In this document: positions 4,514-30,196 of the stretch, one piece after another | Layout of the letters: each line of letters starts with the position of its first letter | Position numbering within the stretch: the first letter of the stretch is position 1 | NCBI GenBank assembly: GCA_002772895.1 | Contig: PFCS01000017.1 | Location: forward strand, 2,262 to 36,485 | Length of the DNA: 34,224 bases | Direction: 5' to 3' | Origin: Parcubacteria group bacterium CG10_big_fil_rev_8_21_14_0_10_36_14 | Lineage (GTDB): Bacteria > Patescibacteriota > Patescibacteriia > GCA-002772895 | Made by a program: the position numbers and the translations under genes | The notes under the pieces: generated by a model | Seen by the model: only the letters and a program-made list of their open reading frames with translations | Told to the model about the DNA's origin: nothing | Database searches by the model: none

Positions 4514-5260
4514 ATGCACATAAGTTTGGCCGCTGAACCAATGTTTAAAATCGGCAGTTTCATAGTTACAAATACACTTATAATGTCAGTTATTATTTCA
4601 ATAGGTTTAATAGCGCTTGCTTTGATTTTACAAAAAAAAATGCAAGAAAAACCAAGAGGACTGCAAAACCTTATAGAACTCTTAGTAGAAAAACTTCTAA
4701 ATTTTATGGAATCCGTAACTCAAGATCGTCGCCAAGCGGTAAAATTTTTTCCAATTGTGGCGACGATCTTTGTTTTTGTAATTCTTTCCAATTGGTTGGA
4801 GATCGTACCGGGCTTGGGAACGATTGGTTTAAAAGAAATGGTTCATGGAGAAGCGATCATTATCCCTTTTATTCGGTCTTCATCGGCAGACTTAAATTTA
4901 ACATTAGCTATTGCTATCATTTCTGTCGTTGCGACGCAAATATTTGGCATCATGGCAATCGGATTTTTCAAGCATTGGGGAAAATTCATTAGTTTTAAGG
5001 GTCCAATTGAATTTTTTGTAGGACTATTGGAACTGATATCCGAAGTGGCAAAAATGATTTCTTTTTCATTTCGGTTATTTGGTAATATTTTTGCGGGTGA
5101 AGTTCTATTGACAGTTGTGTTATTTTTGGTACCCTATATAGTGCCTTTGCCTTTCCTATTTTTAGAGATATTTGTCGGGTTTGTGCAGGCTTTGGTGTTT
5201 GCAATGCTTACATTAGTATTTTTGAAAATGGCAACAGTTTCTCATGATGAGCAACATTAA
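4514..5260 (+). CDS. atpB: ATP synthase Fo subunit a
   Basis: A 248-residue polytopic membrane protein. The essential arginine of the proton path lies in FSFRLFGNIFAGE (about 180-192), the family signature. The first membrane segment is at about 16-39, and LNLTLAIAIISVVATQIFG near 131-149 is the helix bearing the conserved LN. Together with the c ring it forms the ion channel of the rotary synthase. It follows the atpI-like gene by 56 nt; that gap holds only an AT-rich stretch of GTAATT words. The SD-less ATG has T at -1. After the stop comes a large stem-loop (5268-5313) that separates it from atpE. Confidence 0.95.
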   Translation: MHISLAAEPMFKIGSFIVTNTLIMSVIISIGLIALALILQKKMQEKPRGLQNLIELLVEKLLNFMESVTQDRRQAVKFFPIVATIFVFVILSNWLEIVPGLGTIGLKEMVHGEAIIIPFIRSSSADLNLTLAIAIISVVATQIFGIMAIGFFKHWGKFISFKGPIEFFVGLLELISEVAKMISFSFRLFGNIFAGEVLLTVVLFLVPYIVPLPFLFLEIFVGFVQALVFAMLTLVFLKMATVSHDEQH

Positions 5261-5267
5261 TAGTGCG

Positions 5268-5313
5268 TTTCTCTACGCAGGTTAAAGATATATTATTTAA
5301 CCCTGTGGAGAAA
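5268..5313 (+). repeat. Imperfect stem-loop between atpB and atpE
   Basis: TTTCTC (5268-5273) pairs with GAGAAA (5308-5313); an inner stem CAGGTTAAA (5278-5286) pairs with TTTAAC/CCTG (5296-5305, one bulge), and a few further pairs join the two. No U-tract follows, so it looks like an intercistronic processing or stability element. The distal arm GTGGAGAAATAC recurs before atpC. Confidence 0.55.
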
Positions 5314-5389
5314 TACATTAATAATTAATTATATCCGAAGGCCGACGTTAAAAATCAAACTACCGTCGAATGCAGTAGGATAAAAGCGT

Positions 5390-5650
5390 ATGGAAAACGA
5401 AGTGGTACAGCAAGCAGCCGGTTTGAGCCTTGAGGCTATAAAATCCATGGCAGCGGCATTTACAATCACCATTGGCGCATTTGCGCCAGCTTTGGCAATT
5501 GGTAAATTAGCGGCAAAAGCTATGGAAGCCATCGGCAGAAATCCGGAAGCTGCTCCAAAAATCCAAACAGCAATGATTTTATCAATTGCGTTTGCGGAAG
5601 CTATCGCGATTTATGCATTGGTTATCGCTTTGATAATCAAATTTGTTTAA
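5390..5650 (+). CDS. atpE: ATP synthase Fo subunit c
   Basis: An 86-residue two-helix proteolipid. Helix 1 covers about 19-49 and the polar loop is GRNPEAAP (49-56). The ion-binding carboxylate is Glu70 in [11 protein letters not shown]. By alignment with the Na-binding ring of Ilyobacter-type enzymes, the Gln and Ser ligands are replaced by Ile37 and Ala71, so I infer proton coupling. The glycine packing motif GxGxGxG of helix 1 is replaced by A30-x-A32-x-A34-x-A36-x-G38, with Lys39 after it. The gene is bracketed by two stem-loops (5268-5313 and 5663-5681), which may serve the high copy number needed. The SD-less start has T at -1. Confidence 0.95.
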
Positions 5651-5662
5651 GGTAAGACTCTC

Positions 5663-5681
5663 GGCGGCAAATTTTGCCGCC
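5663..5681 (+). repeat. GC-rich hairpin between atpE and atpF
   Basis: GGCGGCAAA (5663-5671) and TTTGCCGCC (5673-5681) form a stable hairpin 12 nt after the atpE stop. There is no U-tract behind it (CCAAGC follows), so it is more likely an mRNA 3'-end stabiliser than a terminator. Confidence 0.6.
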
Positions 5682-5712
5682 CCAAGCTTTGACTTAAATA
5701 ACTATATAATAT

Positions 5713-6207
5713 ATGGAAAGTTTACTAGACAAATTAGGCGTTGATTGGAAGCTTTTATTAGCTCAAGCCATTAACTTTTTAATTCTTTTGGCTATTTTAT
5801 ATAAATTTTTATACAAGCCGGTTTTAAAAACTTTGCACGATAGAGAAGAAAAAATTGATAACAGTCTAAAACAGGCTGAGAGAATAGAAGAAAACTTATT
5901 CAAAAGTGAGGCTGAGAAAGCAAAGATCATCGCAGAAGCCAGGAATGAAGCGGGGAGAATTATTGCCGAAGGAAAAGATACTTCCGATAAAATGCGGGAC
6001 GAGCTTGTTAATACGGCAAAAATTGAAGCTACGAATGCCTTAGAACAAGGTAAAAAACAATTGGCTATAGAAAAAGAACAGATGTTTAAAGAATTGAAAG
6101 GCGAAGTTGCCGATATGGTCACAGTAGCAACAGAAAAAATATTACGTAATAAAATAGATGGAAATTTGGACAAAAAAACTATTGAAGAAAACATAAAGGA
6201 ATTATAA
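5713..6207 (+). CDS. atpF: ATP synthase Fo subunit b
   Basis: A 164-residue subunit b with one N-terminal membrane helix (about 13-36, LLLAQAINFLILLAILYKFL) followed by a long charged, alanine/glutamate/lysine-rich helix that forms the peripheral stalk; YKPVLKTLHDREEKI is the typical transition. It couples the a subunit to delta and F1. It is separated from atpE by a 62-nt gap with a hairpin and is followed by atpH after 2 nt. The SD-less start has T at -1. Only one b gene is present, so a homodimeric stalk is expected. Confidence 0.93.
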   Translation: MESLLDKLGVDWKLLLAQAINFLILLAILYKFLYKPVLKTLHDREEKIDNSLKQAERIEENLFKSEAEKAKIIAEARNEAGRIIAEGKDTSDKMRDELVNTAKIEATNALEQGKKQLAIEKEQMFKELKGEVADMVTVATEKILRNKIDGNLDKKTIEENIKEL

Positions 6208-6209
6208 AT

Positions 6210-6593
6210 ATGAAGAATGGTGATAAAATTTACGCTATTGCGCTTTATGAGGCGCTTCTAGGAAAAACCGGTATAGAAAATATTATCAATAATTTTTTAA
6301 AACTTTTAAAAGAAAAATCACAGCTTCATAGGATGGATAAAATAATTGTAGAATTTGAAAAAATATATAATGAAAAGAATAATATCGCAAAATTGAAAAT
6401 AAAAAGCGCTTTTCCGTTAGATAGCCAGGTTGTGGATAAAATTGCAGAGGCTCTCAAACTAAAGAAATATGAATTGGAAACATCTATTGATAAAGAGCTT
6501 ATTGGCGGATTTGTAGCCAAATATGGGGATACTTTAATCGATACAAGTATAAAAAATAACTTAAAAGAGTTGCATAATAAATTAATAAAATAA
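6210..6593 (+). CDS. atpH: ATP synthase F1 subunit delta (short form)
   Basis: A 127-residue delta/OSCP protein. The C-terminal part is canonical ([21 protein letters not shown] near 93-113), but the family is usually about 175-185 residues. The N-terminal helical bundle that caps the alpha subunits is reduced to about 60 residues ([14 protein letters not shown] at 5-18, then two helices). It starts 2 nt after atpF; a weak AAAGGA at the end of atpF lies 9 nt upstream, but T at -1 is also present. Position between b and alpha supports the call. Whether the short bundle still binds all three alpha subunits is open. Confidence 0.88.
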
Positions 6594-6597
6594 ACAT

Positions 6598-8094
6598 ATG
6601 GATAAAAATGTAATTATTGATCAAATAAAAAAACAATTAGAAGATTTTAAGCCTTCGGCAGAAAGTCAAAAAATCGGTAACGTTTTGGAAGTTGCCGACG
6701 GCATTGTGCGTTTAGACGGACTTTCAGACTGTATGATGCAAGAAATGATTGATTTCGGAAACGATATCTATGGAGTGGTGCTAAACTTGGAAGATGGTGT
6801 TATTGGCGCAATGATTTTGGGTGATTTTGAACACATCAAAGAAGGGGATACGGCAAAAACAACCGGAAAAATTTTATCAGTACCAGTAGGCGAAGCGCTT
6901 ATCGGAAGAGTTGTAAATCCATTGGGGGTACCTTTAGACGAAAAAGGAAAGATAGAAAGCGATAAATTTTATCCTGTAGAAAAAATTGCTCCAGGCGTTA
7001 TCAGCCGTAAATCAGTAGATACACCCGTTCAAACAGGCATTAAAGCTATTGATGCTATGATACCGATTGGCAGAGGTCAGCGTGAACTTATTATCGGCGA
7101 CCGCCAGACAGGAAAAACCGCTATTGCTATTGATGCGATTATCAATCAAAAAGGCAAGGATATGATTTGTATTTATGTAGCAATCGGCCAAAAAGAATCA
7201 AAAGTAGCGCGAATTAAGGCAAAATTGGAAGAAGTTGGCGCAATGGAACATACAATTATTGTTGTAGCTGGAGCATCAGATCCAGCATCTCTTTCATATA
7301 TCGCGCCTTATTCCGGATGCGCTATGGGAGAATATTTTATGGATCAAGGAAAAGATGTGCTTGTTATTTATGATGATTTATCAAAGCAAGCCTGGGCATA
7401 CCGCGAAATTTCGCTTTTACTTCGCCGTCCACCAGGACGTGAAGCATATCCTGGAGATGTATTCTATCTTCATTCACGTCTTTTAGAACGAGCTGCTAAA
7501 CTTTCTGACGCAGAAGGCGGTGGCTCATTAACAGCGTTGCCTATTATAGAAACACAGGAAGGCGATGTATCGGCATATATTCCAACAAATGTTATTTCCA
7601 TTACAGATGGACAAATTTATCTTGAAGGCGATTTATTTTACAAAGGTATCCGTCCGGCTCTAAATGTTGGGCTATCTGTCTCTCGTGTTGGTTCTGCAGC
7701 CCAAATAAAAGCCATGAAGCAGGTTGCCGGAAAATTACGTCTAACTCTTGCTCAGTTTAGAGAACTTGAAGCATTTGCACAATTCTCTAGCGACTTGGAT
7801 GAAGCAACAAAACAACAAATTGAACGCGGAAGAAGAACAACAGAAATTTTGAAACAAGGACAATATGAGCCAATGTCAGTTGAAAACCAAGTTGCTATTA
7901 TTTATGCGACAATAAACGGTTTTCTTGATGATGTAGAAATAGAAAGAGTAGGCGAGTGGGAAAGAAAATTCCACGAATTTTTGAATATGCAAAGAGGCCA
8001 ACTTTTGGAAAAAATCAGAACGGAAAAGGCTTTATCTCAAGAATTGGAAGCAGAATTAAAACAAGCGATCGAAGATTTTAAAAGAACTATCTAA
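6598..8094 (+). CDS. atpA: ATP synthase F1 subunit alpha
   Basis: A 498-residue alpha subunit of normal length. Walker A is GDRQTGKT near residue 169-176, Walker B-like [17 protein letters not shown] near 259-275, and the [24 protein letters not shown] block follows the family. It forms the non-catalytic nucleotide sites of the alpha3beta3 hexamer. It is 4 nt after atpH and is followed by a 52-nt gap (GC-rich 5-bp hairpin plus a GTAATTAGTAATTAAT stretch) before atpG. The SD-less start has T at -1. Confidence 0.97.
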
Positions 8095-8146
8095 TAATAG
8101 TTGCGAAGCGACATAATGTCTATCCGTAATTAGTAATTAATTTGCT

Positions 8147-9052
8147 ATGCCAGCAGGAACAAAGGCGATAACACGCCGAATAAAATCTGTAACAAACACA
8201 AAAAAAATCACCAAAGCAATGGAGATGGTTTCTGTTGCCAAAATGAGACGCGCAACAGACAGTGTTTTAGCTACCAGGCCATACAGCAATTTAGCATGGC
8301 AAATAATAGGCAACATTAGCAAGAGCAAAAATAAAATTGCTCATCCATTATTAGAAAAGAGAAGTGGACAAGGAAAAATAATGGTAATACTAATCACTTC
8401 CGACAAAGGATTATGTGGAAGTTTCAATAGCCAGATGTTTCGAGAAATAAAAAAGTTTGTTTTGGATAATTCTGATAATAATAAAATTGATTTTGTGGTT
8501 GCAGGCAAGAGAGGCGAATTATTCGCTCTTCGGGAAAAAATGAATATTACCGCAACCTTTGAAGACTTATTAAATAAAACAAAGTTTACTGATATAAAAC
8601 CAGTCGCAAAGCTTGCGATGAATAAGTTTGTTGATAAAACATACGACAAGGTCTATGTAGCTTACACGGATTATATTTCAACATTAAATCAAAAAGCTCG
8701 TGTAAGACAACTATTGCCGATTATTCAAGACGATAACCTTGGCGATATAGGAAAAAAAGATGAGACACCGGAACAGACCGAAGCGCAAAAGTCGTTAGAT
8801 TATATTTTTGAACCGCAAAAAAAAGAATTATTAGAAATGTTATTGCCAAAAATAGTTGAAACGCAGATTTTTCAGGCAATTTTAGAATCGGTCGCATCAG
8901 AACATTCCGCAAGAATGGTAGCAATGAAAAACGCAACTGACGCTGCAAACGAAATGGTAGATGATTTAACGCTTACCTTTAATAAATTAAGGCAAGCCGG
9001 AATTACGAGAGAAATATCGGAGATATCGGCAGGAAAAGCGGCATTAGAATAA
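8147..9052 (+). CDS. atpG: ATP synthase F1 subunit gamma
   Basis: A 301-residue central-stalk subunit. The N-terminal helix carries ITRRIKSVTNTKKITKAMEM (around 8-27) and the C-terminal helix carries SEHSARMVAMKNATDAANEM, the two family signatures that form the rotating coiled coil. LITSDKGLCGSFN near 83-95 is the conserved Rossmann-like core. An acidic insertion near 200-225 (KKDETPEQTEAQKS) is somewhat longer than in Escherichia coli. The next ATP synthase gene (atpD) is more than 530 nt away, beyond a minus-strand gene. The SD-less start has T at -1. Confidence 0.96.
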   Translation: MPAGTKAITRRIKSVTNTKKITKAMEMVSVAKMRRATDSVLATRPYSNLAWQIIGNISKSKNKIAHPLLEKRSGQGKIMVILITSDKGLCGSFNSQMFREIKKFVLDNSDNNKIDFVVAGKRGELFALREKMNITATFEDLLNKTKFTDIKPVAKLAMNKFVDKTYDKVYVAYTDYISTLNQKARVRQLLPIIQDDNLGDIGKKDETPEQTEAQKSLDYIFEPQKKELLEMLLPKIVETQIFQAILESVASEHSARMVAMKNATDAANEMVDDLTLTFNKLRQAGITREISEISAGKAALE

Positions 9053-9060
9053 AAGTATAG

Positions 9061-9092
9061 TATAAAAATACGGCTCAATGGATATGAGCCGT
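9061..9092 (-). terminator. Rho-independent terminator of the minus-strand zinc-ribbon transcript
   Basis: On the minus strand ACGGCTCA-TATCCAT-TGAGCCGT (9092-9070) is followed by ATTTTTATA. In the plus direction no U-tract follows, so it should not stop the ATP synthase transcript. Confidence 0.75.
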
Positions 9093-9167
9093 AAAGCGAG
9101 AGTCACCGGGTTTTACACAGTTCATTATAACGTATCTTTTCTCAGTGCTTATAACTGCGAATTTCAA
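9075..9167 (-). pseudogene. Possible 30-residue ORF or gene remnant downstream of the zinc-ribbon gene
   Basis: A strong AAAGGAGG lies just after the zinc-ribbon stop (9194-9187) but no ATG, GTG or TTG follows at a usable distance. A protein-like frame, open from just before this SD, contains TTG 9167 and ATG 9122 and ends in the terminator hairpin; from TTG it reads MKFAVISTEKRYVIMNCVKP and ten more residues. Either the proper start codon was lost or an unusual start is used. I do not recognise the sequence. Confidence 0.25.
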
Positions 9168-9199
9168 AATTACTTTTAGGTATTTTCCTCCTTTATTGG

Positions 9200-9445
9200 C
9201 TATACCTTCATAAAGTCAATTCTGAAAATCCTATAAGAAATGTTCTGACAATGAGGGCATTGCGCTTTCTTCTTATGCTTTAAGATGTAATTGAGCTTTC
9301 CGATATCAAGATCATTTTCTGTGAGCTCTCCGTCCGGAAGACGCATTGTGGCAAAGACATCTACGTCCCACAAACCTTCGCAACTATTGCATTTTAGTTT
9401 GACTGCTAAATGCACAGGTCTACTACCAAGCTTTTTTACTAGCAT
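9200..9445 (-). CDS. Small zinc-ribbon protein inserted in the ATP synthase operon
   Basis: An 81-residue protein on the strand opposite to the ATP synthase genes. Two CxxC pairs (KCNSCEG near residue 20 and CPHCQN near 64), about 40 residues apart, should bind one zinc ion. The frame opens 12 codons earlier at ATG 9481, but that codon lies inside the -10 box of the promoter at 9477-9505, so I choose ATG 9445, which has AAGGG 9 nt upstream. It has its own promoter and terminator, hence an independent cassette between atpG and atpD. A similar two-CxxC protein is encoded at 11959-12189. Function unknown; a nucleic-acid or protein contact role is typical of such ribbons but not shown. Confidence 0.7.
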   Translation of the reverse strand: MLVKKLGSRPVHLAVKLKCNSCEGLWDVDVFATMRLPDGELTENDLDIGKLNYILKHKKKAQCPHCQNISYRIFRIDFMKV

Positions 9446-9476
9446 TTCACACCGCCCTTGTCCTATAAATAACCTT

Positions 9477-9505
9477 AACATAAAAAATTAATAATTGTGA
9501 ATCAA
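9477..9505 (-). promoter_or_regulatory. Promoter of the minus-strand zinc-ribbon gene
   Basis: TTGATT (9505-9500), a 17-nt spacer and TATGTT (9482-9477) on the minus strand. It overlaps the candidate plus-strand promoter of atpD. Confidence 0.5.
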
Positions 9506-9510
9506 AACTA

Positions 9511-9523
<13 letters not shown>
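9495..9523 (+). promoter_or_regulatory. Candidate separate promoter of atpD-atpC
   Basis: TTGTGA (9495-9500), a 17-nt spacer and TGTAAT (9518-9523, five of six consensus bases). It would allow atpD and the genes after it to be expressed independently of the upstream ATP synthase genes. Confidence 0.45.
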
Positions 9524-10992
<1,469 letters not shown>

Positions 10993-11000
10993 TATCGTAC

Positions 11001-11054
11001 TTCTCCACAAGGTCGAACAATAATATTTTTCGACTAAGCAAAGCGTGTGGAGAA
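11001..11054 (+). repeat. Stem-loop between atpD and atpC
   Basis: TTCTCCACA (11001-11009) pairs perfectly with TGTGGAGAA (11046-11054); inside, GTCGAA (11012-11017) pairs with TTCGAC (11029-11034). The distal arm GTGGAGAAATAC matches that of the atpB-atpE stem-loop, suggesting a related element. Confidence 0.6.
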
Positions 11055-11064
11055 ATACCTATGT

Positions 11065-11499
11065 ATGTTAAATCTCAAAATAACAACTCCAGAAGGCGAG
11101 ACATTCAATGATGTGGTAGATTCTATAACAATCCCTACAAAAATGGGTGAAATTACAATACTTCCAAACCACATTCCATTGGTTAGCGCAGTTATGCCGG
11201 GTGAAATTATCGCCAGAAAAAAAGATAAAGAAGAATATCTCTCTGTTTCTACGGGGTTTGTTGAGGTTTCAAATAATAATGTTACTCTTTTGGCAGATAC
11301 TGCAGAAATGGTGGATACATTAGTTGAAGAAGAGATTTTACGAGCCAAAGAACGCGCAGAAAAACTTCTGACAGAAAAGAGACAAGAATCTGACGTTGCC
11401 TTTGCAGAAGTGGCAGCTATATTAGAACGAGAAGTGGTTAGACTAAAAGTTTATCGCCGTCGCAGACACGGTAACAAAAATTTAGAAATAAATAATTAA
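11065..11499 (+). CDS. atpC: ATP synthase F1 subunit epsilon
   Basis: A 144-residue epsilon subunit. Residues 1-85 are the beta-sandwich (NLKITTPEGETF, GEITILPNHIPLVSAVMPGE, STGFVEVSNNNVTLLADTAE) and 86-144 the two-helix C-terminal domain, ending in a basic RRRRHGNK tail. I choose ATG 11065, since the extra residues of the longer frame fall in the distal arm of the preceding stem-loop and T precedes this ATG. It closes the ATP synthase set; the carbonic anhydrase follows 18 nt later. Confidence 0.92.
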   Translation: MLNLKITTPEGETFNDVVDSITIPTKMGEITILPNHIPLVSAVMPGEIIARKKDKEEYLSVSTGFVEVSNNNVTLLADTAEMVDTLVEEEILRAKERAEKLLTEKRQESDVAFAEVAAILEREVVRLKVYRRRRHGNKNLEINN

Positions 11500-22521: not shown

Positions 22522-23442
22522 TTATTTATTTAACGCTCTCTTATAGACTCTTTCCGGTTTAGGACCAACAAAAGCCTCTCCATTTATAAATATTGTTGGT
22601 GTACCATAGATACTGGTTTGTTTTGTTTCTTCAAGCATCTCAAAAACCCTATCTTTTATCTCTTCACTTTCTGTGCATTTTCTTATTTCCTCAACATCAA
22701 GACCTAAACTTTGGATAATACCATCCGTAAAACTTGAGTTAGCGATTGCACTTTTTTCGGAAGAAAATATCAAATCATTAAACAGCCGAAGCTTTCCCTC
22801 GTCTTCTTTTTGTACACAATAACCATAAGCGGTTAAGTAATTAGTTTCAGTTTTTACCGGAAAATGAATGAAAACATAATCGACACTATATTTATCTAGC
22901 AAATTATTAATTATAGGATATGCTTCTCGTGTATAATCACAAGAATAGCACCCGATAAACACAATCTCATTTTTTGCCCCAACATTTGTATGGGGGAAAA
23001 GAGACAAATCAACATCTTTTAAAGACAGTCCTGACTCTTTTGGCGCTTCTGCAAAACATTCTTCACCAATAGCACTTATTTGATTATTTTTTCCAGTTGG
23101 ATCGAAAACGCAAAAACCCGAAGCATTTAATCCATTGCAACTTCCGTAGGCATAGTAGTTCCAAACACTATTTCCAACCCAAATAATACTCAGAATACTT
23201 AGAAGGATAAATATCCAAGACAATAACTCAAAATATTTATTAAAAATTCGCGCTAAGAGGGGAGTACGGTTTATAAGCTTTGACAATATCATTCCTTTAA
23301 ACTTTTCGCGAAATGTAACGATGCAGGGACGAAAAGTAACACGTCTAAAAACACACGACCCGGCTTCTTTTGCCAATTCGCGGTGTGTAGCGCTAAATAT
23401 TCCCAAAATTCCAAATAAAATAAAACCCACTAAACAAAACAT
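22522..23442 (-). CDS. Membrane-anchored thioredoxin/DsbA-fold protein
   Basis: A 306-residue protein. A short N-terminal helix (about 2-18), a cysteine-containing linker (AGSCVFRRVTFRPC, 27-40) and a second helix (about 72-95) precede an extracytoplasmic thioredoxin-fold domain with the redox motif GCYSC (about 163-167) and the cis-proline segment YGTPTIFING near 282-291. The paired cysteines in the linker could pass electrons to the CYSC site, as in self-contained redox relays, but this is inference. It sits between sufS-like and YdjM-like genes in an operon with two further DsbA-like proteins. T is at -1. Confidence 0.78.
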   Translation of the reverse strand: MFCLVGFILFGILGIFSATHRELAKEAGSCVFRRVTFRPCIVTFREKFKGMILSKLINRTPLLARIFNKYFELLSWIFILLSILSIIWVGNSVWNYYAYGSCNGLNASGFCVFDPTGKNNQISAIGEECFAEAPKESGLSLKDVDLSLFPHTNVGAKNEIVFIGCYSCDYTREAYPIINNLLDKYSVDYVFIHFPVKTETNYLTAYGYCVQKEDEGKLRLFNDLIFSSEKSAIANSSFTDGIIQSLGLDVEEIRKCTESEEIKDRVFEMLEETKQTSIYGTPTIFINGEAFVGPKPERVYKRALNK

Positions 23443-23476
23443 AGAAAATTAATTTTCAATTATGAATTACAAATTA

Positions 23477-24682
23477 TCAATATAATTTTAATATTTTCTC
23501 GAGAGTATTAACAAATTTCTCTGCTTCTTCTTCTGTGTTATAAAAATAAAATGATGCGCGCAAAGCTCCGTCAATTTTATTTTTATTAAACCATGAATGG
23601 ACACAAAATTGACCGGAACGGACCGCAATATTGGCGATATTATCAAACAAAACGCCAATTTCCGCTGATTTTCCGCTTATATCCGAGCAACGCATTGTTA
23701 TTATACCCGATCGCATTTGCGGGTCTTCTGGTCCAATAATTTTTATCCTATCGATACCGCATATGGCATCAGTTATAATTTTATTTAACCTATACTCTTG
23801 CGCTTCAATATTTTTATATCCAATTTTTTCAATATACTTTATAGCTTCTCCAAGGCCTAAAATTCCTGCATAATTTTGTAATCCCGCTTCAAGCCGTTCC
23901 GGTAATAGCAATAGTTTGTATCCTTCGTGTGTAGAATCTAAAACTGCGCCTCCGCCAACAAAAATAGGATTTAACTTCTCTAATAGTTCATATTTTCCAT
24001 ACAAAACGCCGATTCCCGAAGGCCCGCACATTTTATGTCCGGAAAATGCCAAAAAGTCTACGTCCATTTTTTTTATGCTTACTTCTCTATGCGGAACCGT
24101 TTGCGCGCCATCCAATAAGACTAGGGTGCCATTTTTATGGGCAATTTTTATTATTTCTTCCGCAGGAATCGTTGTTCCATCCAAATTAGATGTCATCACC
24201 ATTGCAACTAATTTTACACCCACAATTATCTCTTTAAACTTTTCTATATCGAAACTATTATCTTCGCGAGAGGGGACTGTTTTGTAAACAATTCCACGTT
24301 CATGCATCAGCTTTAGCCAAGGCGTTAAATTGGAATTATGCTCTTTATCTGTCCCTAAAACAACATCACCCTTTTTCAGGTCCAATGAATTGGCAACAAT
24401 ATTAATCGCCTCTGTAGTATTTTTAGTAAATATAATTTCTTCACTTTTTTTTGCTCCAATAAAACGAGCAATATTCTGTCTAACATTTTCAATATCTTTT
24501 GTTAATCTGTCCGCTATCTTATATGCGCTTCTTCCAGCGCAAACAGGATATTCATTATAATATTTGTTTATTGCATCAACAACCGGTTGCGGGCGAAGCG
24601 TCATACATGCGTTATCAAAATAAACCAGATTGGGCTGGTTTTTGAAAATTGGAAAATCTTGTCTAAAATTATCTAAAACCAT
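23477..24682 (-). CDS. SufS-like cysteine desulfurase (class V aminotransferase)
   Basis: A 401-residue PLP enzyme. The PLP lysine is in SGHKMCGPSGIG (about 214-225), preceded by LDGAQTVPH. The C-terminal active-site loop RSGQFCVHSWFNK contains a cysteine in the position of the SufS persulfide residue. It resembles the SufS/CsdA class, which takes sulfur from cysteine as a persulfide. No sufBCD, sufU or iscU is in the window; instead it lies within an operon of thiol-disulfide proteins, 6 nt after the DsbA-like lipoprotein. The stop is TGA followed by TAA. T is at -1. Confidence 0.87.
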   Translation of the reverse strand: MVLDNFRQDFPIFKNQPNLVYFDNACMTLRPQPVVDAINKYYNEYPVCAGRSAYKIADRLTKDIENVRQNIARFIGAKKSEEIIFTKNTTEAINIVANSLDLKKGDVVLGTDKEHNSNLTPWLKLMHERGIVYKTVPSREDNSFDIEKFKEIIVGVKLVAMVMTSNLDGTTIPAEEIIKIAHKNGTLVLLDGAQTVPHREVSIKKMDVDFLAFSGHKMCGPSGIGVLYGKYELLEKLNPIFVGGGAVLDSTHEGYKLLLLPERLEAGLQNYAGILGLGEAIKYIEKIGYKNIEAQEYRLNKIITDAICGIDRIKIIGPEDPQMRSGIITMRCSDISGKSAEIGVLFDNIANIAVRSGQFCVHSWFNKNKIDGALRASFYFYNTEEEAEKFVNTLEKILKLY

Positions 24683-24688
24683 AACTTT

Positions 24689-25315
24689 TTATTTTTGAAC
24701 TACGCCCAAGTCCATTAACTTTCTATCTACGATTCTTTTTATAGATAGATATGACCCGGCTCCGCTTACTTTCTCTCCATTTATAACATAAGTTGGAGTA
24801 GAATTTATTTTACTTGCTCTTGCTTCATCAATATCAGAGAGAATTTGAGACTGATATTTATTACTATCCAAGCAAGAATCAAATTGTGAGCCATCTAATC
24901 CTAAATCACGTGCCACTCTCTTCAAAAACTTGCTATCATATGTGCTTGCTCCTTCAGCGCCCTGAACTTCGAATATTTTGTTATGAAAATTATAAAATTT
25001 TCCCTGCTCTTCCGCGCAAAGAGCGGCATTTGCCGCACGACGCGATACTTCTCCCATAAAAGCAAAGTTTTTATACACTAGCTTTGCTTCTCCATTTTCT
25101 ATATAATCTTCGATTAAAAATGGAACAATAGAAGATTCAGCTAGTTTGCAGGCGCTACATTGATAATCAAAATATTCCACAATCTCTACAGGTGCGTCAT
25201 CATTGCCGATTTGAGGATTTTTTATTGTCGCTTGTGATATATTTCCTGTGCATCCCGCACCCGTCAAAACCAAGGCCATCAACAAAATAAAAATTTCTTT
25301 TATTTTAGATGTCAT
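24689..25315 (-). CDS. DsbA-like lipoprotein
   Basis: A 208-residue thioredoxin-fold protein. Residues 1-22 form a signal peptide ending in LTGAGC, so a lipid anchor is probable. The redox site is CSAC in EYFDYQCSACK (about 50-60), and the cis-proline segment is NSTPTYVINGEKVSGAGSY near 175-193. This is the DsbA/ScoA subfamily, oxidising or shuffling disulfides outside the membrane. The frame is open 13 codons upstream (ATG 25354), but that would overlap the preceding gene and spoil the signal peptide; ATG 25315 has T at -1. It lies between a second DsbA-like gene and the SufS-like gene. Confidence 0.85.
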   Translation of the reverse strand: MTSKIKEIFILLMALVLTGAGCTGNISQATIKNPQIGNDDAPVEIVEYFDYQCSACKLAESSIVPFLIEDYIENGEAKLVYKNFAFMGEVSRRAANAALCAEEQGKFYNFHNKIFEVQGAEGASTYDSKFLKRVARDLGLDGSQFDSCLDSNKYQSQILSDIDEARASKINSTPTYVINGEKVSGAGSYLSIKRIVDRKLMDLGVVQK

Positions 25316-25334
25316 AAAAAATAATTGATATTTT

Positions 25335-26141
25335 CTATAATGCAGCATCAACAACCGGTTTCATTTCGGTATAGCTATAGGCTCCGCTAAAGTTTGTTGT
25401 ATTAACAAAAAAACTTGGAGTGCCTTGAAAACCCAATTGCGCCGCTGTATTCATATCTTGCACTAAATTATTGTCATATTTCCCACTCTCTAGACATGTT
25501 TTCATATCATTATAGCTAACAACAGATTTTAGTAAGGTTGCAACTTTGTCTACTTTAGCGCTTGCATCCAAAGTTGTATCATTCAAAATAGCATAACCAT
25601 TTGCGGACATTAGCAACTCATGAGCTTGCCAAAACTTTCCTTTTGCATTGGCGCAATATAGAGCTTTTGCTCCAACCTCTCCATTATTATGACCATTTGC
25701 GTAAAGCCAGACAAAAGAGGCTTTGCCTTGCTCAACCAGCTTTTTCATCTCTGCAACTGGCGATACATAAGTTCCTCCATCGGCAACCAATATAAATCTG
25801 TCGCCCGCCTGCTGGTTTAAAGAAGGATTTAATCCTGAGGCAATACTACAATACGGACAGCTCGGATCGGAAATCTCTACAAAAATAAGCTTGGAATCTT
25901 TTTTTCCAATAGTTATATTTCCTCCGGTAAAGAGCGCCCTTAAGCTATCCATTGTTACGGTTGGTTTTGTCTCTGCTCCGGTTTCTTGGGTTGTAGCTAC
26001 GGTTGGGGTAGTCTCTGCCTCCGCCTTTACAAAATCCTTTGTCTGCAAAAACCTTCCGCCATATCCCAACATCAATCCAACAGCCAAAGCACTAACCACA
26101 AAAAGAGTAGTTTTATTTATTTTTATTGTTAGTTCTTCCAT
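25335..26141 (-). CDS. DsbA-like membrane-anchored thioredoxin-fold protein
   Basis: A 268-residue protein with an N-terminal membrane helix (about 11-29), a threonine-rich linker (about 40-62) and a DsbA-type domain. The redox site is CPYC in DPSCPYC near 94-97, and the cis-proline segment is GFQGTPSFFVN near 237-247. It is first in the minus-strand operon, behind its own promoter (26178-26206). With the following lipoprotein it gives two DsbA-type enzymes in tandem, so one may be an oxidase and the other an isomerase or reductase; the sequence alone does not decide. T is at -1. Confidence 0.85.
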   Translation of the reverse strand: MEELTIKINKTTLFVVSALAVGLMLGYGGRFLQTKDFVKAEAETTPTVATTQETGAETKPTVTMDSLRALFTGGNITIGKKDSKLIFVEISDPSCPYCSIASGLNPSLNQQAGDRFILVADGGTYVSPVAEMKKLVEQGKASFVWLYANGHNNGEVGAKALYCANAKGKFWQAHELLMSANGYAILNDTTLDASAKVDKVATLLKSVVSYNDMKTCLESGKYDNNLVQDMNTAAQLGFQGTPSFFVNTTNFSGAYSYTEMKPVVDAAL

Positions 26142-26211: not shown

Positions 26212-28386
26212 TTAGTCAAGCTTTTTTCTTTTTAAGAATAATGAATTTAGCACTACCGAAACACTTGACAAAGCCATTGCCAAGCCCGCTAATTCCGGTC
26301 GTAAAAGCCCTGAAGCGGCGATAGGTATTCCTATGCTATTATAAAACAATGCCCAAAACATATTTTGTTTTATTTTTGCCATAGTCATTCTGCTAAGACG
26401 TATTGCTCGTCCGACATCGGCAATACTGTCTTTTACGAGAATAATCCCACCTGTTTCAATAGCAATATCAGCACCAGCCCCCATAACAATACCTAAATCG
26501 GCTTGAGCTAAAGCAGGGGCGTCATTTATACCATCACCGACCATTGCCACTTTAGTACCTCTTAATTGAAGTTCTTTTATCTTGTCAGCTTTTTCACCGG
26601 GCAAGACTTCTGCCATTATATTTTCAATTCCCGCCTGTTTACCGATAGCTTTTGCTGTACGTTCATTATCTCCGGTGATAAGCCATATATCTATGCCATA
26701 TTTTCGCAAAACAAGGAGCGCCTCCTTTGTCCCTTTTTTTAAAGTATCAGAAATAGCTATGAGCCCCGCTACTCTACCGTCTAGCGCCGACATAACAACA
26801 GTCTGTCCCTGTTTTTCTAAATCTTTTTTTTCTTTTTTTATATCTTCTGAAATTTTAATTTTATTTTCAATCAAAAATAATTCTGTTCCAATTAATATTT
26901 CTTTTTCTAAGACAACACCTTTTGCGCCCTTTCCTAAAATAGCTTTAAAATTTTTCGGCTCTTCAATAGTTACTTTTTTTTGTTTTGCAAAATTTACAAT
27001 TGCTTCTGCCAAAGAGTGTTCAGACACAGATTCTAAAGAAGCGGCCATTTCAAGTAGCTCTTTTTCTTTTATGTCGTAAGTTATTACCTTTGTTACATTG
27101 GGCTTACCTTCCGTTAAAGTTCCGGTTTTATCAAAAACAATCACATTTATCTTATTTGCAACCTCAAGCGCTCCGCCATTTTTAATTAAAATCCCATTTT
27201 GCGCGCCCCGCCCGGTTCCTACAATAATAGCAGTCGGGGTCGCAAGCCCCAACGCGCACGGACACGCAATAACAAGCACCGCTACGCCCGCAAGAAGCGC
27301 AAAAACAAAAGACGCGGATAAAACAAAATACCAAACAGCAAACGCAATTATGGCTATCGCGATTACAACGGGGACAAAATAAGAAGAAACCATATCGGCA
27401 AAACGCTCTATTGGCGCTTTTGAACCCTGCGCCTCTTCCACCATTTTAATAATTTGCGCGAGTAAAGTTTCTTTTCCGACTTTTGTCGCCTTAAATCTAA
27501 AGCTTCCGGTTTTATTTATAGTGGCGCCAAACACAGTGTCTCCAACTGATTTATCCACAGGGATACTCTCACCGGAAATCATTGACTCGTCTATGCTGGA
27601 TTGTCCGCTTACAATTATTCCGTCAACAGAAATTTTTTCACCCGGCTTTACTATTATTACATCACCAATGCGGACATCTTCAATTGAAACTTTGATTATT
27701 TCGTTTCCACGGACGACATTTGCTGTTTTCGCCTGAAGCTCAAATAATTTTTTAATCGCATCGCCCGCTTTTCCTCGCGCGCGCGCTTCCAACCAGTTTC
27801 CTAAAATGACAAAGGTTATTAAAAGAGACGATGTTTCAAAAAAAACATCACTCTTAAGCCAAAAAGTATTAGCTACGCTGTAAGCGTAAGCCGCGGTTGT
27901 GCCCATTGCGATAAGCATATCCATATTGGCGGACTTATTTTTCAAAGCATAATAAGTCCCGCGATAAAACCGCCACCCAATAACAAATTGCGCAATTGAC
28001 GCCAAAATAAATTGCGCGAACATACTTTCAAAAGATTTATTTTTCAAAATCATTGATAGCACAATAATCGGTATTGATAACATCAACCCAAGAATAAAAG
28101 CGTTTCGTTCGCGTGGAGAATGTTCGTGTTCGTGAGAATGCCCCTTCATCTTCATTTTATGTTCTTTGGGCATTTCATCAGAAGAAACTTTGTATCCGGC
28201 TTTCTTTACAGCAGAAATCACTTCTTTTTCAATATCTTTTCCTTCATATTCCACTCTCATTTTCTCATCCGCAAAATTAACATCCGCTTTTTTTATCCCA
28301 GATATCTTTTTAACATTTTTTTCAATTATTTTTGCGCAAGATACGCAATGCATACCCTCAATTTTTAAAATCTTTTTTTGCAACAT
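26212..28386 (-). CDS. copA: Copper-translocating P-type ATPase
   Basis: A 724-residue P1B-type ATPase. One N-terminal HMA domain has GMHCVSC (12-18), followed by a Met/His-rich linker ([14 protein letters not shown], about 81-94), eight membrane helices, CPC in [11 protein letters not shown], the phosphorylation site [11 protein letters not shown] and the hinge [10 protein letters not shown]. The last helices carry YN (FYNSIGIP) and MALSS, the Cu(I) ATPase signature, so copper rather than zinc or cadmium is exported. It is downstream of the HMA-SafE fusion and csoR on the same strand, separated by a 92-nt gap with a hairpin. T is at -1. Confidence 0.95.
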
Positions 28387-28425
28387 AATATATTATTAAT
28401 TTTTATTGGCGATCGTTGTGCGAGC

Positions 28426-28453
28426 GAAATGAAAAAGTACTCTTTTTCATTTC
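28426..28453. repeat. Perfect 12-bp hairpin between the SafE fusion and copA
   Basis: GAAATGAAAAAG (28426-28437) and CTTTTTCATTTC (28442-28453) with a 4-nt loop. No U-tract follows on the minus strand. The word AAGTACTCTTT occurs in it and again at 28470-28480. It may attenuate or process the message between the two copper genes. Confidence 0.55.
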
Positions 28454-28478
28454 CGAGCTGAAAGCACGAAAGTACTCT

Positions 28479-29825
28479 TTATTCAACTACGATAAATTTT
28501 CCCCAAACCATTTTCATCCAACAACTAAATTTTATCTCACCAACTTTTTTAGGCGTAAACTCAATAATATTCTCGCCATATTTTAGTTTCTTCCTTATAT
28601 TATACTCCGGCATTATTATTTCGTTTGTGCATCCGCTCATCTGCTTTACATTTATAATCCACCTGGCAGGCACGCCCCTTTTTATGTACAATAAATTAGG
28701 AGAATATCCGCCAAACGTTAAATCCATTTTTACGGTCTGAAACCCTTTTGCATCTTTATCTGTTGTGTTTAAAATTTGACTGGTAGTTTGACGAGGGACT
28801 ATGCTTCCCATTCCATATCCAAAATTAACAAATCCGCGGTTCAACATAAAAACTCCCAAAATGATAACAATTATTCCAGAAATTTTTAAAGCATATTTTA
28901 TCTTCTCTTGGCTGATAAGAGAAATAAATTTTCCAAAACCAAACATTAAAGGAACTGTTCCAAGAGCATATATCCCCATTGATAAAGCGCCCCGCATTAT
29001 ACTTCCGGATGCCAAAGCATATAATTGCATAGCTTGCAAAGGACCGCAGGGCATAAGCCCATTTAAAAGTCCAACGATAAACGGGCCTTTTGGTTTTTTA
29101 GCGCGTTTCTGACTAAATAAAAAACGCGCGATGAATAATGGGGTTTTTAATTTTATTTTATCAAGCCACTTAGAATTGGTTACCAAAGACAACCCCATTA
29201 AAATCATAAATCCTCCTGCCACTAATGTGACAATGCCTGTAAATGTCGGGTTTATCGCAAAAAAAGACCCAAACCCGCCTAAAACACCGCCAATTAATGA
29301 ATAAGAGATTACTCTCCCAAGATTATATTGAAAGTGGGGGAGAGAAGACGCTTTTCCGTTATTTTTTATCTGATGCTTAGTTGTATATGCCACTACCAAT
29401 CCTCCGCACATTCCAACACAATGAAAGCTAGCCAACAGACCAATAATAAAAATCAGCCAATATCCAATATTATTTTCGTTTAATCTTGAAAGAACGCTCA
29501 AATAACCCAAATTTTTTATCAAAAAATACCCTACAACAAAAACCAGCAATAAAATTACGGCTATAACCATATTGTTGGAAATTCGGATTTCCAATCCTTT
29601 TTTCTCCGATGAATTTTTTACCACTTTATAGTTTAATTTTTCAATAGCCTTAAAAATACGCTCTTGTGATATCTTTGCGTCATCAAACTCCAAATCGCAT
29701 TGACCTGTCGCATAGTCAACAGAAACAGCTTTCACACCCTCTCGCGCTCCAAGTTCTGTTTCAATTAGCACCTTGCAACTTTCACAATGTAGACCTTCAA
29801 TTTTTATTTTAATTTTTTCAAACAT
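28479..29825 (-). CDS. HMA - SafE/UreH-like transporter - cupredoxin fusion
   Basis: A 448-residue three-part protein. Residues 1-70 are an HMA domain with GLHCESC (11-17). From about 82 to 325 come roughly seven membrane helices of the TauE/SafE or UreH-like type, with FHCVGMCGG near 135-143 and NGLMPCGPLQAM near 254-265, both cysteine motifs in helices. Residues about 355-448 are a cupredoxin-like domain ending in FSCWMKMVWGKFIVVE, whose C-x-M-x-M is a plausible copper site. By family knowledge such proteins move or hand over copper across the membrane. It starts just after csoR and precedes copA. T is at -1. Confidence 0.85.
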   Translation of the reverse strand: MFEKIKIKIEGLHCESCKVLIETELGAREGVKAVSVDYATGQCDLEFDDAKISQERIFKAIEKLNYKVVKNSSEKKGLEIRISNNMVIAVILLLVFVVGYFLIKNLGYLSVLSRLNENNIGYWLIFIIGLLASFHCVGMCGGLVVAYTTKHQIKNNGKASSLPHFQYNLGRVISYSLIGGVLGGFGSFFAINPTFTGIVTLVAGGFMILMGLSLVTNSKWLDKIKLKTPLFIARFLFSQKRAKKPKGPFIVGLLNGLMPCGPLQAMQLYALASGSIMRGALSMGIYALGTVPLMFGFGKFISLISQEKIKYALKISGIIVIILGVFMLNRGFVNFGYGMGSIVPRQTTSQILNTTDKDAKGFQTVKMDLTFGGYSPNLLYIKRGVPARWIINVKQMSGCTNEIIMPEYNIRKKLKYGENIIEFTPKKVGEIKFSCWMKMVWGKFIVVE

Positions 29826-29826
29826 A

Positions 29827-30099
29827 CTACTTTCCGGCCAATTTTGTAACCTTTAATATTTCTTCTATCATCTCCTCTTTTCTTTTTTGGCTTGCAGTAC
29901 CTATCGCTTTTTTAAAACAAGTATCAAGGTGCCCTTCCATAAGCATCTGATGAGCTGATTTTAAAAGTCCGATGATTGCCAAATTTTGTTGCATTATATT
30001 TATGCAATACTCATTTTGCTCGGACATATTTATTACTTTGGCAAGCAAGCTTTGCGCTTTTTTAAAATTAATAAGCGTCTTTTGTTTTTGACCTGACAT
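29827..30099 (-). CDS. csoR: Copper-sensing repressor CsoR
   Basis: A 90-residue all-helical repressor. The Cu(I) ligands are Cys32, His57 and Cys61 (EYC ... GHLDTC), with spacings of 25 and 4 exactly as in the Mycobacterium protein (36, 61, 65). Cu(I) binding should release it from DNA and derepress the copper genes behind it. An in-frame ATG at 30135 would add 12 residues but lies in the presumed operator; both starts have T at -1, and I prefer ATG 30099 from the family length. It heads the csoR, HMA-SafE-cupredoxin, copA unit and diverges from lysS. Confidence 0.88.
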   Translation of the reverse strand: MSGQKQKTLINFKKAQSLLAKVINMSEQNEYCINIMQQNLAIIGLLKSAHQMLMEGHLDTCFKKAIGTASQKRKEEMIEEILKVTKLAGK

Positions 30100-30133
30100 A
30101 ATTTTATTTTTAATTATTAGTTTATCAATACCC

Positions 30134-30146
30134 ATACCATAGGTAT
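30134..30146. promoter_or_regulatory. Candidate CsoR operator
   Basis: ATACCATAGGTAT, a 5-3-5 inverted repeat, lies at the predicted transcription start of csoR. The TACC/GGTA ends recall known CsoR sites, but the G-tracts are shorter. A second dyad, TATAGTATAATACTATA, covers the -10 region (30152-30168). Confidence 0.4.
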
Positions 30147-30152
30147 AGATAT

Positions 30153-30181
30153 ATAGTATTATACTATAAAAACATTGTCAA
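30153..30181 (-). promoter_or_regulatory. Promoter of csoR and the copper genes
   Basis: TTGACA (30181-30176), a 17-nt spacer and TACTAT (30158-30153) on the minus strand. Confidence 0.7.
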
Positions 30182-30196
30182 ATTTAGTTTGACAAT
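30174..30196. repeat. Inverted repeat holding both -35 boxes
   Basis: ATTGTCAAA (30174-30182) and TTTGACAAT (30188-30196) are exact inverted copies around a 5-nt centre. They contain the -35 elements of csoR (minus) and lysS (plus). Confidence 0.7.

Follow-up and report, generated by a model that had tools for sequence, protein, structure and literature searches.

A predicted CsoR-controlled copper operon in a Patescibacteria genome encodes a fusion of HMA, SafE and CupA-type cupredoxin domains

We analysed a stretch of 34,224 nucleotides (the window) of contig PFCS01000017.1, positions 2,262 to 36,485, from Parcubacteria group bacterium CG10_big_fil_rev_8_21_14_0_10_36_14, whose assembly (GCA_002772895.1) holds 0.93 Mb in 65 contigs and is 99% complete. 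Three minus-strand genes of the window form an operon: csoR, a gene for a fusion of HMA, SafE (DsbD_2) and cupredoxin domains, and copA. The operon is very probably a CsoR-repressed copper-defence unit, in which the fusion is the membrane companion of CopA and has a cytosolic HMA domain, seven helices and an outer Cu(I) site of the CupA type. Copper would free CsoR from the operator at the promoter, and CopA would export Cu(I). To our knowledge, copper handling in Patescibacteria and in strict anaerobes has hardly been studied. In this 0.93-Mb genome, all of the copper system that can be seen is one operon, and one predicted membrane-spanning protein carries Cu(I) sites of known type at both ends, which raises the question whether its DsbD-type membrane domain carries copper, electrons, or both.

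The fusion gene (28479..29825, minus strand, as are all features of the operon) encodes 448 amino acids, and its three Pfam domains all scored over their cut-offs. These are HMA (residues 7–67, 29625..29807, E 2.9e-12), DsbD_2 (residues 125–325, 28851..29453, E 7.4e-51; 173.3 bits against a cut-off of 24.9 with the DsbD_2/SafE profile PF13386) and Cupredoxin_1 (residues 355–446, 28488..28763, E 7.9e-08). The original prediction that a single protein joins an HMA domain, a membrane part and a cupredoxin was therefore right; the motifs that it named, HCVGMCGG, MPCGP and C-x-M-x-M, are all present in the translation, the last as CWMKM, and copA (26212..28386) follows the fusion gene as it had stated. 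The AlphaFold2 model of the fusion had a mean predicted local distance difference test score (pLDDT) of 82.9 and a predicted template modelling score (pTM) of 0.73. Each domain has one pair of conserved cysteines: C14/C17 of Cu(I) type in HMA, C136/C260 in the six-helix SafE part and C399/C435 in the cupredoxin. All of these are kept in 71 of 71 aligned sequences except C399, which is kept in 70; in rows from two patterns of our contig scan of named genomes, which contain PCG and CxMxM, the conservation of C260, C435, M437 and M439 is biased, and that of C14, C17, C136 and C399 is unaffected. C140 is an additional cysteine in 51 of the 71.

Sequence and model both assign the cupredoxin domain to the CupA type. 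When searched alone against the PDB it matched Streptococcus pneumoniae CupA (2mry/4f2e, E 1.2e-18) and then the metal-binding domain of pneumococcal CopA (4f2f, E 1.7e-10), with no other match up to E 1. CupA also ranks first among solved structures for the model (Foldseek rmsd, root-mean-square deviation, 0.9 and TMt 0.85; VIA Z 16.6 over 97 residues). In the alignment, C399, C435, M437 and M439 of the fusion fall opposite C74, C111, M113 and M115, which PMC5646241 gives as the binuclear Cu(I) ligands of CupA. Hence, what had been called an outside carrier can now be defined as a predicted CupA-type site. CupA (4f2e) shares with our protein the cupredoxin fold, the four ligands of the binuclear site and a copper operon with CopA. 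However, CupA proper is a cytosolic chaperone for CopA with one membrane anchor, whereas the domain here is fused to HMA-SafE, follows seven helices and is predicted to lie outside. PMC5646241 and PMC7558416 describe CupA as confined to a small number of streptococci, where it deals with intracellular copper; our data suggest that CupA-type sites are common in anaerobes.

After the domain calls, our best-supported statement is that the HMA domain and the cupredoxin are predicted to lie on opposite sides of the membrane. The model has one helix after HMA (residues 82–106) and then the six SafE helices, the fourth of which is broken at the PCG motif. Two or more lysines plus arginines are found in loops 1–2, 3–4 and 5–6 in 67, 71 and 70 of the 71 sequences, and in loops 0–1, 2–3 and 4–5 in just 5, 0 and 1. 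By the positive-inside rule, this charge bias places HMA on the cytosolic side and the cupredoxin on the outer side. Relatives agree in the parity of domains and helices, since the extra helix before SafE is present in 130 of 131 HMA-bearing proteins, the remaining one being borderline with a weaker helix. Among 17 proteins without HMA, counted after leaving out one contig-edge row, 12 are also without the extra helix (one, L146, perhaps cut), and the five that keep it (L140, L150, L153, L155 and L156) all have, where HMA would stand, a short N-terminal tail with cysteine. Both lines of evidence thus agree with the original placement of HMA in the cytoplasm and of the cupredoxin outside.

The regulator belongs to the CsoR family (PF02583, E 7.8e-13, 49.1 bits against a cut-off of 22.8) and matches Mycobacterium CsoR (PDB 2hh7, E 4e-9). 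Its Cu(I) ligands C44, H69 and C73, numbered on the translation of a 102-amino-acid open reading frame, have exactly the C-25-H-4-C spacing that had been claimed, and the pattern is also found in orthologues. This longest reading frame starts at 30135, which is inside the operator, and orthologues start later, at the equivalent of MSGQKQKTLINFKK; for these reasons we moved the start to 30099, and the true csoR is most likely 29827..30099, with 90 amino acids. It is nearly contiguous with the fusion gene, and 92 bases separate the fusion gene from copA. A conserved CsoR-like operator, TACCTATGGTATGGGTA (30129..30145), sits between this start and the −10 box, just downstream of the latter. The putative sigma-70-like promoter (30153..30181; TTGACA, 17 nt, TACTAT) was found in a scan with 10 of 12 matches; because the AT-rich region yields many chance matches (30 found against 13.5 expected in shuffles), its assignment rests on its position directly before the operator.

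This predicted inverted-repeat site would give CsoR an operator at its own promoter, and similar sites precede csoR in relatives. A site of TACC-to-GGTA type was found 5′ of csoR in 7 of 9 relatives' regions (L037–L041, L044 and L050) with a loose pattern that had no chance control, and was not found by this pattern upstream of csoR in L046 and L080. In L005–L007, operator-like sites before csoR were seen by eye. The exact 17-mer has one copy in the genome, with two further sites at three mismatches against 1 for a control pattern. Since the genome has one CsoR, located in the operon, and one good operator site, the copper operon is probably the entire CsoR regulon. Control of the unit by CsoR, as originally proposed, is supported by the ligands, the promoter–operator layout, the similar sites of orthologues and the single exact site.

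For the work of the fusion itself we favour, tentatively, a mechanism in which the SafE part is a DsbD/CcdA-like thiol relay serving the outside copper site. Reducing power would pass from cytosolic thiols to C136/C260 and then to C399/C435 of the outside cupredoxin. The outside site would thereby be kept reduced and bind Cu(I), and could reduce copper and retain it at the surface, while HMA would bind Cu(I) inside and couple the relay to copper load or to CopA. What is carried, in which direction and with which partner we infer; the domains with their ligands, the bias in topology and the operon with its operator were computed.

We favour such a relay because the membrane Cys pair is common to SafE and a CcdA-like protein, and because the cysteines of CupA reduce Cu(II). 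C136 and C260 are both kept in 20 of 20 rows of the HMA-SafE set, in 19 and 20 of the 20 rows of the SafE-cupredoxin set, in 7 of 7 distant SafE proteins and in one CcdA-like protein that this genome also encodes. As the pair also occurs in this CcdA-like control, a thiol relay explains it at least as well as a copper route. The CcdA family is known for electron transfer. Moreover, outward electron flow would be downhill, whereas passive exit of Cu(I) opposes the membrane potential. DsbD is laid out as three linked domains with one conserved Cys pair apiece, and DsbD/CcdA relays share with the fusion a six-helix part with one cysteine in helix 1 and one in helix 4. The soluble domains of DsbD are thioredoxin-like and immunoglobulin-like, whereas those here are HMA and cupredoxin, and the membrane part has conserved methionines in addition. 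The protein is not DsbD proper: the curated DsbD model PRK00293 gave 19.6 bits against a cut-off of 330, and no thioredoxin domain was found by Pfam. Elsewhere in the genome, a thioredoxin-CcdA fusion (L003:937-2142) and a second CcdA-like protein (L002:3-719) are possible ordinary thiol relays.

According to PMC5646241, CupA reduces Cu(II) via C74/C111, and the source that re-reduces these residues is called unknown there. With a CupA-type site and a DsbD-type domain in one chain, the fusion could supply this source. We consider it possible, though doubtful, that it is the missing electron source for CupA-type sites more widely, with the cytosolic HMA chaperone domain and the membrane dithiol keeping a binuclear Cu(I) site outside the cytoplasm in the reduced state, for copper defence across Patescibacteria, Clostridia, Synergistota and Spirochaetota.

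Several points weigh against a thiol relay. HMA CxxC sites normally carry Cu(I) rather than electrons. Met207, Met266 and Met283 of the membrane part are kept in 70, 66 and 69 of the 71 fusions, in 3, 2 and 4 of the 7 distant SafE proteins and nowhere in the CcdA-like control, and this preference for the fusions hints at copper in the membrane part. The SafE profile had no credible match among solved structures, and its alignment with the CcdA-like pair of the genome covered only a part, 131 columns, at a probability of 89; fold searches with the whole model were filled by HMA and cupredoxin matches. An HMA-SafE protein without a cupredoxin is encoded at 16 of the 149 loci tallied by profiles (one contig-edge row left out), and one relative, L040, is without C399, M437 and M439. 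DsbA-like genes were near the fusion in 0 of 10 near relatives (at three of these loci the flank covers just 1.5 kb), which leaves the fusion with no linked thiol-redox partner.

It is nearly as likely that copper itself crosses, as the first proposal had it: HMA would take up cytosolic Cu(I), a Cys/Met relay would carry it through the membrane, and the CupA-type site would receive it outside, alongside CopA. The canonical Cu(I) motif of HMA and the three membrane methionines, conserved in the fusions more than in distant SafE proteins or the CcdA-like control, argue for this possibility. So do split forms in Deinococcus, Tsukamurella, Streptomyces and Chlorohelix plasmids, where a small HMA or cation-transporter gene of its own comes after the SafE gene, the product of which ends in a cupredoxin-like part with CxMxM. 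However, such a path has no source of energy to drive copper outward against the membrane potential, its Cys pair is the same in the CcdA-like control, and 12 relatives (one perhaps cut) combine SafE and cupredoxin with neither HMA nor the extra helix.

It is unlikely that the CupA-type site only accepts Cu(I) from CopA and retains it outside, with SafE chiefly as an anchor. All four CupA ligands are present, the operon is shared with copA, and some close relatives have an extra Cys-rich tail after the cupredoxin, all of which fit a surface acceptor; but the invariant C136/C260 and the HMA domain are left unexplained, and an anchor needs no conserved polar core.

The copper inventory of the genome bears on the purpose of the operon. 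Its sole Cupredoxin_1 match, its sole two HMA domains and its sole CsoR are all inside the operon. The product of copA (724 amino acids) is a Cu(I) P-type ATPase with its own HMA domain and, by translation, a CPC motif; its P-type ATPase domain scored E 1.6e-59, and it reached 621.5 bits with the copper-translocating model TIGR01511 (cut-off 397) and 636.7 bits, below the cut-off of 1316, with the CopA equivalog NF007952. A stand-alone CopZ was rejected, as no HMA domain lies outside the operon at E ≤ 0.1, and so was a second copper ATPase: apart from CopA, a P-type ATPase match was found only in an 882-amino-acid open frame, which has no HMA match. The absence of an evident copper enzyme, first noted for the window, extends to the whole genome for the five families searched, a part of all copper enzymes: COX1, COX2, Cu-oxidase, Copper-bind and Sod_Cu had no match at E ≤ 1, and each search was positive in control genomes. 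As copper domains are confined to the operon and these families are absent, detoxification is likely its role and fits better than enzyme maturation. That the operon delivers copper to a copper enzyme is very improbable, for although SafE and a copper oxidase are encoded close together in a Haloarcula neighbourhood, those five families are missing here and CsoR control is a response to excess copper.

The fusion is widespread rather than special to the window. A protein search gave matches in 181 of 379 genomes of the phylum, many full length and many partial. The scan of named genomes gave at least 560 relatives, mostly in anaerobes, of which 80 were kept; they include Patescibacteria, Clostridia, Synergistota, Spirochaetota, Anaerolineaceae and others. 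By the profiles, HMA and SafE are joined to one cupredoxin at 74 of the 149 loci and to two at 39; SafE-cupredoxin occurs without HMA at 17, and two proteins have a second HMA. Of 40 loci taken by match range as partial architectures, L121 and L125 do encode a cupredoxin and L142 and L149 an HMA domain, and L141 and L146 are cut or broken; the counts given here rest on the profiles. In three haloarchaea the SafE gene lies directly 5′ of a P-type ATPase gene. In the tree, the window's protein falls in a clade of 11 Patescibacteria rows (100/100), next to proteins of Bacillota type; a further 20 Patescibacteria rows, whose helix-1 motif differs, are separate from it (100/100). The close relatives with a Cys-rich tail after the cupredoxin are those of L005, L006 and L007; the window's protein is without it. 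Two Patescibacteria copper loci encode single-helix CupA-like proteins with all four ligands (L147:837-1196 and L152:813-1277), placed before copA, with a SafE-cupredoxin gene after it.

Counts of neighbouring genes are lower bounds, as many loci are cut by the end of a contig or come with just 1.5 kb of flanking sequence. With this limit, a copA-like gene was found by phmmer in 44 of the 80 named loci, a copA motif test was positive in 9/29, 39/80, 19/20 and 14/20 loci of four sets, and a strict csoR pattern in 16/29, 10/80, 15/20 and 9/20; reversed controls gave none in either test. A looser csoR pattern had 7 matches in 149 reversed control loci, and the strict one is quoted instead.

The label "Membrane copper tolerance protein (HMAND)" is presumably an older automatic name for proteins of HMA plus a cycZ-like membrane part. 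It is in use in PMC11602223, as a label only, with no function assayed in the passage concerned. Hobbs et al. (2016, PMC4938975) had already placed proteins with HMA and DsbD_2 in a predicted CsoR regulon, sometimes in an operon with a copper ATPase. Their group resembles ours as an HMA plus DsbD_2 membrane protein that is a predicted CsoR target; its domains are given as HMA, DsbD_2 and DUF2318, the word cupredoxin is absent from the paper, and no mechanism for the protein was found there. In our case the operon includes csoR itself, a difference from the group as described there. We found no paper on a CupA-type HMA-SafE-cupredoxin triple fusion in the open-licence literature, subscription papers being mostly outside the search. 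Hence, the protein class was known before, and the predicted CupA-type outside domain, topology and Patescibacteria operon were not found in that literature.

Downstream of copA on the same strand (22522-26141) are genes for three DsbA-like thioredoxin-fold proteins and a SufS-like cysteine desulfurase. A functional role for these DsbA-like genes was dropped, as they are not kept beside the fusion in near relatives; in the four wider sets, DsbA-like genes were found in 4/29, 0/80, 0/20 and 1/20 loci. Elsewhere in the window, 4514-11499 resembles an F-type ATP synthase cluster, judged from translations of its open reading frames.

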